From an uncultured bacterium (GTDB taxonomy: Bacteria; Hydrogenedentota; Hydrogenedentia; Hydrogenedentales; CAILVY01), in contig CALEDJ010000009.1 in NCBI GenBank assembly GCA_937951485.1, positions 62,001-126,000 on the forward strand: 64,000 bases of DNA, given 5' to 3'. The notes under the pieces are model-generated. The model had not been told where the DNA came from, searched no databases, and saw only the letters and a program-made list of their open reading frames with translations. A program made the translations under genes and the position numbers. Shown here one piece after another: positions 14,637 through 15,603 of the stretch (the stretch's first letter is position 1; each line of letters opens with the position of its first letter).

Positions 14637-14680
14637 GGAATGCGGAGTGCGGAGTGCGGAATGCGGAGTGTGGAATGGGG
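14637..14680 (+). repeat. heptamer array (CGGAGTG/CGGAATG), left arm
   Basis: About six heptamers of the CGGARTG type begin 2 nt after the dehydrogenase stop codon. The reverse complement of the same array lies at 15111-15159, so the two arrays are in inverted orientation around the four-helix-bundle pseudogene. Confidence 0.85.
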
Positions 14681-14736
14681 AATAGGGAATATGGGAAGAG
14701 TTGGGCAGGAATGCTACAAATCAATAGAATCCCTTC

Positions 14737-15087
14737 ATGAATGACAATAATCTAAAGAGCAGGACTAAACAGTTTGCCCTTCGTATCATTCGCGTTTGCG
14801 AATCTCTTCCCATAAATCGCACAACGGAAACTATTGCTCGACAACTGATGCGTTGCGGTACATCGGTCGGCGCGAATTATCGGTCAGCATGTCGTGCTGA
14901 ATCCAAGGCTGACTTTGTTGCAAAAATGGGGATTGTCGAAGAAGAATGCGACGAATGTCTTTAATGGATGGAACTACTCATCGAGGCCGGAATCTTGGAA
15001 AAGAGGTTGCTTGAAGACCTGATGGATGAAGCCAATCAGATAACGGCCATCGTTATTGCATCTATTCGAACAGCCCGAAAACAATAA
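14737..15087 (+). pseudogene. four-helix-bundle (S23/IVP-type) protein, interrupted by one in-frame stop
   Basis: The frame begins MNDNNLKSRTKQFALRIIRV and contains the family hallmarks RQLMRCGTSVGANYRSA and AESKADFVAKMGIVEEECDE. It meets TAA at 14962-14964, then continues in the same frame WMELLIEAGILEKRLLEDL to a second TAA at 15085-15087. Intact family members usually read DE..YWLELL at this point, so a Tyr codon (TAT or TAC) became TAA by one base change. Full length would be 116 residues with the stop counted, normal for the family. Related proteins include intervening-sequence proteins and the Avd subunit of diversity-generating retroelements. The base composition is AT-richer than its neighbours. 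Confidence 0.85.
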
Positions 15088-15110
15088 CGTTCTTGTTGTC
15101 TGTTATCCCA

Positions 15111-15159
15111 CACTCCACACTCCGCACTCCGCATTCCGCACTCCGCATTCCGCATTCGA
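15111..15159 (-). repeat. heptamer array (CACTCCG/CATTCCG), right arm
   Basis: Seven tandem heptamers, alternating CACTCCG and CATTCCG, end at the promoter of the structured RNA. They are the reverse complement of the array at 14637-14680. Confidence 0.85.
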
Positions 15160-15166
15160 AAGGGTC

Positions 15167-15195
15167 TTGCGCTTTTTTGGAATTCGTTGTATTGT
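15167..15195 (+). promoter_or_regulatory. promoter of structured RNA, TTGCGC-17-TATTGT
   Basis: TTGCGC at 15167-15172 and TATTGT at 15190-15195 are exactly 17 bp apart. Predicted initiation is near 15202, just before the first strong hairpin of the RNA. The -35 box is the same as that upstream of rpmE. Confidence 0.65.
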
Positions 15196-15201
15196 AGAGG
15201 C

Positions 15202-15525
15202 GCAGGAAAGACCTGCCGGTGGCGATGAAGACTCATGAGGAGACTTCGGGGAACATCGGTCAGGCGGAAAGGAGGTGGTCCATCGATGGGAAGTCGGGTA
15301 GAACCCGGCGGGAGTAGTTGGCTGCCCGCTCGCGGCGACGCAACATGCAACCTTCAGATGGGCCCGCTTGTGAGGGAAGCGGGTCGGAGGAGGCGGGGTC
15401 GCCGGTAGTGGGCGGCGCTCGATGGGCGAAAGGGTGCGCCCCTTTCGGCCTGACGTAACCGATACGGTACTTTGATTGGCGCGCCCTTTCCGCGGTTCTT
15501 CCGCGGGGAGGGCCGCCCTTTTTTT
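15202..15525 (+). ncRNA. putative structured non-coding RNA, about 325 nt, unrecognised class
   Basis: The interval has its own promoter and a strong terminator, and no homologous protein frame. Perfect or near-perfect stems include CCTGCCGGTG (15212-15221) with CATCGGTCAGG (15254-15264), GTCGGGT with ACCCGGC (15293-15309), GGCCCGCTT with AAGCGGGTC (15361-15385) and CGAAAGGG with CCCTTTCG (15427-15447). AAAGGAGGTG at 15268-15277 is fully complementary to the 16S rRNA 3' tail and is followed 8 nt later by ATG at 15286, opening a 40-residue Arg-rich frame to 15408. So it could be a regulatory RNA, a leader with a short peptide, or a dual-function RNA. It lacks the conserved boxes of RNase P, tmRNA and SRP RNA. 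Confidence 0.55.
15478..15525 (+). terminator. Rho-independent terminator of the structured RNA
   Basis: A stem of about 17 bp (GGCGCGCCCTTTCCGCGG at 15478-15495 with CCGCGGGGAGGGCCGCC at 15501-15517, some G-U pairs) is followed by seven T residues at 15519-15525. It separates the RNA from priA. Confidence 0.85.
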
Positions 15526-15574: not shown

Positions 15575-15603
15575 TTGACCACGCCGCAGGCCGCGCCTAT
15601 ACT
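15575..15603 (+). promoter_or_regulatory. priA promoter, TTGACC-17-TATACT, giving a near-leaderless transcript
   Basis: TTGACC at 15575-15580 and TATACT at 15598-15603 are 17 bp apart. The ATG of priA is at 15614, so the 5' leader would be only about 4 nt; no Shine-Dalgarno sequence precedes that ATG. Confidence 0.6.

Follow-up and report, generated by a model that had tools for sequence, protein, structure and literature searches.

The RNA encoded at positions 15202-15525 (+) of the window, the 64,000-nt stretch of DNA analyzed here, is, as judged from sequence, a member of a conserved and mostly single-copy RNA family of Hydrogenedentota, a phylum known here from metagenome-assembled genomes only. 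The databases and the literature that we searched support the view that this family is undescribed. The RNA extends from its predicted start to the T tract of a terminator, and its predicted fold is markedly more stable than those of shuffled versions of the sequence (z = -6.4), with 0 of 100 shuffles being as stable. We favor its interpretation as a stand-alone regulatory RNA that acts through engagement of the ribosome and for which the encoded peptide is dispensable, a reading to which we give a little less than an even chance.

Both transcription signals of the original prediction are present at the locus. The promoter (15167-15195, +) consists of the -35 hexamer TTGCGC (15167-15172) and the -10 hexamer TATTGT (15190-15195), separated by a 17-nt spacer. 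These hexamers score 7/12 against the consensus, which is below the listing level of a strict promoter scan; the same box recurs at the same place in the homologs, the best promoter-like boxes of which read TTGCG-17-TATAGT. The predicted strong terminator is of the intrinsic type (15483-15525, +), with a stem at 15483-15513 followed by the T tract, and terminator-like hairpins are found shortly 3' of the stop codon in most homologs as well. A second sigma-70-like promoter, TTGACC-17-TATACT (15575-15603, +; 10/12), lies between the terminator of the RNA and priA and probably belongs to priA itself.

DNA similarity revealed matches in 18 of 60 genomes, counting the window's own 4.55-Mb genome, and a covariance model was positive in 31 of the 68 genomes examined from the phylum, with a single copy in each except for one genome with two. 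As the homologs are kin to one another, counts across them, here and below, do not represent independent events. The two copies in the exceptional genome, G046 (L009 and L019), share 95% identity over the ORF and can be attributed either to a duplication or to a mixture of strains in the assembly. A refined covariance model applied to the remaining Hydrogenedentota returned marginal matches only, and those inspected do not carry the 16S complement described below. About half of the phylum, including all f10 and f7 genomes, is without a detectable copy, indicating that the RNA is not essential to all members. A pattern scan of GTDB contigs, which relies on an exact pattern and would overlook diverged relatives in other phyla, identified 19 stretches, 17 of them labelled Hydrogenedentota. 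The other two are labelled "uncultured bacterium" and Nitrospiraceae, and their loci match genomes placed in Hydrogenedentota by the phylum search. A phage element was ruled out, with 0 matches to the exact pattern among viral contigs.

The expectation that this is a conserved structured RNA outside the described classes, housekeeping RNAs included, agrees with the searches for known RNAs. No family of Rfam release 15 reached its gathering threshold in the window, where the best sub-threshold matches have E values of 1.9-7.2, and the single match across 20 homologous loci, Acido-Lenti-1, is located ~1 kb away from the RNA. As its helices also covary (see below), the prediction of an undescribed conserved RNA has passed both computational checks that were set for it. 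Like tmRNA, RNase P RNA and 6S RNA, the family consists of single-copy structured RNAs of 180-400 nt, but the genome has all three of these housekeeping RNAs at other loci, which rules out such an identity. ARAGORN detected no tmRNA within the window, and the tmRNA of the genome is found on another contig. A further likeness is offered by the Caulobacter sRNA CC2171 (RF01867), the consensus of which contains GAAAGGAGGUGAUCCA, the same 16S complement; however, the alignment extends mainly over the GAAAGGAGGUGAUCCA stretch and the remainder does not fit. The CC2171 covariance model scores 11.8 bits against a gathering threshold of 75 (E 4.6). The open-access literature that we searched holds no account of such an RNA.

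The complement of 16S rRNA proved longer than the 10 nt originally predicted. It forms an extended Shine-Dalgarno (SD) sequence, GAAAGGAGGTGGTCC (15267-15281, +), which is nearly invariant in the homologs, complements the full 16S 3' tail and matches the antisense of the 16S 3' end of its own genome with one G.U pair. The complement of the whole tail, 14-15 nt, is represented by AAAGGAGGTG. Within the genome, AAAGGAGGTGRTC is found twice, once at the RNA locus and once on the strand antisense to the 16S 3' end (5'-GAAAGGAGGTGATCCAGCCG), and therefore the match spans the whole single-stranded tail. The near-invariant consensus of the homologs reads GAAAGGAGGTG[A/G]TC[C/T]. Its two variable sites within the 16S match (A/G and C/T) still pair with 16S rRNA by G.U, and the first A of the complementary stretch is replaced by G in a few homologs.

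Duplex energies, which take in 16S bases bordering helix 45 and assume the mature 16S end, amount to -27.9 kcal/mol for the SD of the window and to -25 to -29 kcal/mol across the family. The same energy for 266 long ORFs of the genome, drawn from 464 kb of it with the first ATG as the guessed start codon, has a mean of -7.3 and a minimum of -17.9 kcal/mol. The distance between SD and ATG is constant throughout the family, being one base longer in two homologs. GGAGG and AUG are 10 nt apart, a spacing longer than the optimum that may make initiation less efficient and thus speaks against the favored reading.

The extended SD is followed by a 40-codon open reading frame running from ATG to TAG (15286-15408, +). 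This frame is open in all 29 complete homologs, in which it measures 27-43 codons. Over the first 27 codons the true frame is open in 29/29 sequences and the shifted frames in 6/29 and 1/29; over 38 codons of the long-ORF group, the respective numbers are 20/20 for the true frame and 1 and 0 for the shifted ones. In close pairs of homologs lone gaps are 3 nt long and substitutions favor none of codon positions 1, 2 and 3, so that no selection on the peptide is visible. From these comparisons the frame looks selected and the peptide appears to be without sign of selection. The peptides differ beyond about residue 10, and their net charge ranges from -4 to +7. Of the 40-residue Arg-rich frame that had been predicted, the frame is thus conserved and the Arg-richness is not, and the comparison lends no support to an Arg-rich peptide as the conserved function. 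A programmed frameshift at the stop codon was ruled out, the extensions in other frames ranging between 1 and 330 codons and following no shared pattern.

These features bear on the alternative of a compact mRNA, one that would use a very strong ribosome-binding site to make a small protein of 27-43 residues and would have its RNA structures only to tune expression. The fixed spacing between SD and ATG and the conserved frame would agree with such an mRNA, as would an N-terminal MxSPG motif that is common to many homologs. However, the codons of MxSP are mostly AGT CCG, third positions included, and overlap an RNA hairpin. The even distribution of substitutions over codon positions and the divergence of the peptides in sequence and charge also speak against a selected protein product, and the 40-residue frame has no Pfam or NCBIfam match above cut-off. 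We therefore regard a small-protein mRNA as unlikely.

The structure of the RNA offers a second layer of conservation. The original prediction of at least four perfect 7-9-bp stems is borne out in part. Conservation is seen for P1, the hairpin in the ORF and the long closing stem; the GCAGG/CCTGC hairpin at 15202-15216 is absent from the homologs. P1, a conserved 5' stem with an internal loop (15217-15258, +) located 5' of the SD, has 11 of its 12 pairs supported by two-sided changes, with 89% of cells paired versus 34-52% in slid controls. Covariation extends to P_C, a hairpin within the ORF (15361-15385, +), where two-sided changes are found in 7 of 9 pairs (16 sequences). Just 3' of the start codon, the GTCGGGTAGAACCCGGC hairpin (15293-15309, +) is retained in long-ORF homologs and is mostly invariant, and is therefore without covariation support. 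The closing stem joins early codons of the ORF (5' strand, 15320-15339, +) to the stop region (3' strand, 15398-15416, +, including the stop codon). Its 3' strand is also seen in the fold, and support for the stem comes from cognate pairing energies, the alignment there being too inexact for pair-by-pair counting (cognate -36.9 versus non-cognate -29.8 kcal/mol mean; 0/20000 permutations).

Further downstream, a 3' element (CGATGGGC ... CCTTTCGGCCTGA; 15420-15453, +) is predicted to serve as an anti-initiator that either pairs with the start site or folds locally. For the window, pairing between this element and the start site is computed at -44.0 kcal/mol versus -27.5 kcal/mol when the 3' region is a non-cognate one, and the alternative local hairpin at -17.4 kcal/mol. 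Clear sequestration of the start site by the 3' element is restricted to the window's family and to L014, and SD sequestration was rejected as a general trait of the homologs. The 3' element of L014 holds GATCACCTCACTTTCG, a near-copy of the 16S 3' end; it can pair with the SD of the same RNA and, judging from this modeled pairing, might represent an internal mimic of the anti-SD.

A second SD-like motif, GGAGGAGG (15386-15393, +), precedes the stop codon. One of the motifs GGAG, GAGG and AGGA occurs in the 30 nt that precede the stop codon in 29/29 complete homologs, versus 15.3 expected from shuffles, and mostly at a distance of 12-17 nt from it. When the stop codon occupies the A site, the second motif lies ~6 nt from the P-site codon, which is the usual SD spacing, and it could therefore re-pair with a terminating ribosome.

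A more specific form of the favored ribosome-engaging RNA can be sketched from these elements. Tentatively, and with more doubt than confidence, we propose a new class of trans-acting RNA that captures and parks ribosomes: its 16S-tail complement would load the 30S subunit, its mini-ORF would be independent of the product, and its second SD-like site would hold the terminating ribosome. Under the favored reading in general, the extended SD would pair with the entire single-stranded 16S 3' tail and so capture a 30S subunit, which would initiate at the fixed AUG and read 27-43 codons. Translation would open the long closing stem between the ORF and the stop region. The second SD-like motif, placed as far from the last sense codon as an SD usually is from a start codon, might then re-pair with the terminating ribosome, leaving it held. 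What counts would be that ribosomes are loaded and that this changes the structure of the RNA or the number of free 30S subunits. The 3' element that can sequester the start site in the window's family would add an on/off switch. The comparison of homologs itself shows a family with a conserved architecture, the match to 16S rRNA, a frame kept without its peptide, and freedom from the neighboring genes. The steps from transcription through 30S capture and translation to parking at the stop codon and any effect in trans are all inferred from sequence. If true, the RNA would conserve the act of translation and not its product, and ribosome engagement would be separated from coding.

The genomic surroundings agree with a free-standing gene. 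An all-against-all comparison of flanking ORFs found no neighbor kept family-wide at a common position, consistent sharing being limited to close relatives. The downstream genes encode PriA, a GFO/IDH/MocA oxidoreductase, a response regulator, a glycosyltransferase, a methyltransferase or an esterase, and are found on either strand. Non-conserved neighbors, together with a promoter-like box and a terminator of its own, would also suit a dual-function small RNA that pairs in trans with target mRNAs, the ORF giving a secondary product. RNAIII and SgrS are dual-function sRNAs that combine a conserved peptide with pairing to mRNAs. The present RNA resembles them as a stand-alone structured RNA with a short, putatively translated ORF; unlike in RNAIII and SgrS, the peptide is not conserved and 16S rRNA is the only clear pairing partner. 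No conserved single-stranded stretch for pairing with targets was seen besides the 16S complement, and we consider a dual-function sRNA of this kind quite unlikely.

The proposed regulation by an exceptionally strong SD has a counterpart in Flavobacteriales, where rpsU stands out by an extended SD with an energy below -13 kcal/mol, which is used for autoregulation (PMC9976891). The SD:ASD pairing of the RNA described here, at -25 to -29 kcal/mol, passes this threshold, although the energy methods may differ. As in the rpsU (bS21) mRNA of Bacteroidota (PMC9976891), the SD is exceptionally long relative to the 16S tail and is confined to one standout gene per genome. Unlike the rpsU mRNA, this is a structured stand-alone RNA with a non-conserved mini-peptide ORF; the rpsU of the window's genome lies elsewhere with an ordinary SD, and the 40-residue frame is not bS21 (no Pfam match). 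The likeness raises the alternative of a ribosome-state sensor as in bS21 autoregulation, with an extended SD read mainly by 30S subunits that have an exposed 16S tail, e.g., those without bS21. The extended SD of Flavobacterium rpsU is indeed translated selectively by bS21-less ribosomes (PMC9976891), bS21 is encoded in 59 of 68 Hydrogenedentota genomes, and the rpsU of the window's genome has no extended SD. However, occlusion of the 16S tail in Hydrogenedentota ribosomes is unsupported and the ORF does not code for a ribosomal protein, and we consider such a sensor very unlikely. For the favored ribosome-engaging regulatory RNA, the extended SD would provide a natural test of strong SD pairing as a means of regulation outside Bacteroidota.

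Leader-peptide attenuators consist of a short ORF, alternative stems and a terminator, all of which are present here, but the conserved downstream gene of such attenuators is absent. That the RNA acts in cis, as a leader whose ribosome-controlled terminator regulates the gene downstream, is accordingly the least probable reading, and a very improbable one: the ORF followed by closing stem and terminator is attenuator-like and priA lies downstream in the same direction, but relatives carry unrelated genes downstream, often in opposite orientation, and the promoter-like site at 15575-15603 separates terminator and priA. The non-conserved neighbors, found in both orientations, thus lend no support to a leader peptide for priA.

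On the upstream side of the RNA, an ORF at 14737-15087 (+) matches PF05635, the 23S rRNA-intervening-sequence (four-helix-bundle) protein family. This ORF looks broken, because an in-frame TAA is found at 14962-14964 and the same frame resumes after it. It is flanked by 54-nt inverted repeats (14638-14691 and 15104-15157) made of GGAATGCGGAGTGC-like units. The right arm of the repeat stops ~9 nt 5' of the -35 box of the RNA, so that an insertion may directly adjoin the promoter on its upstream side.
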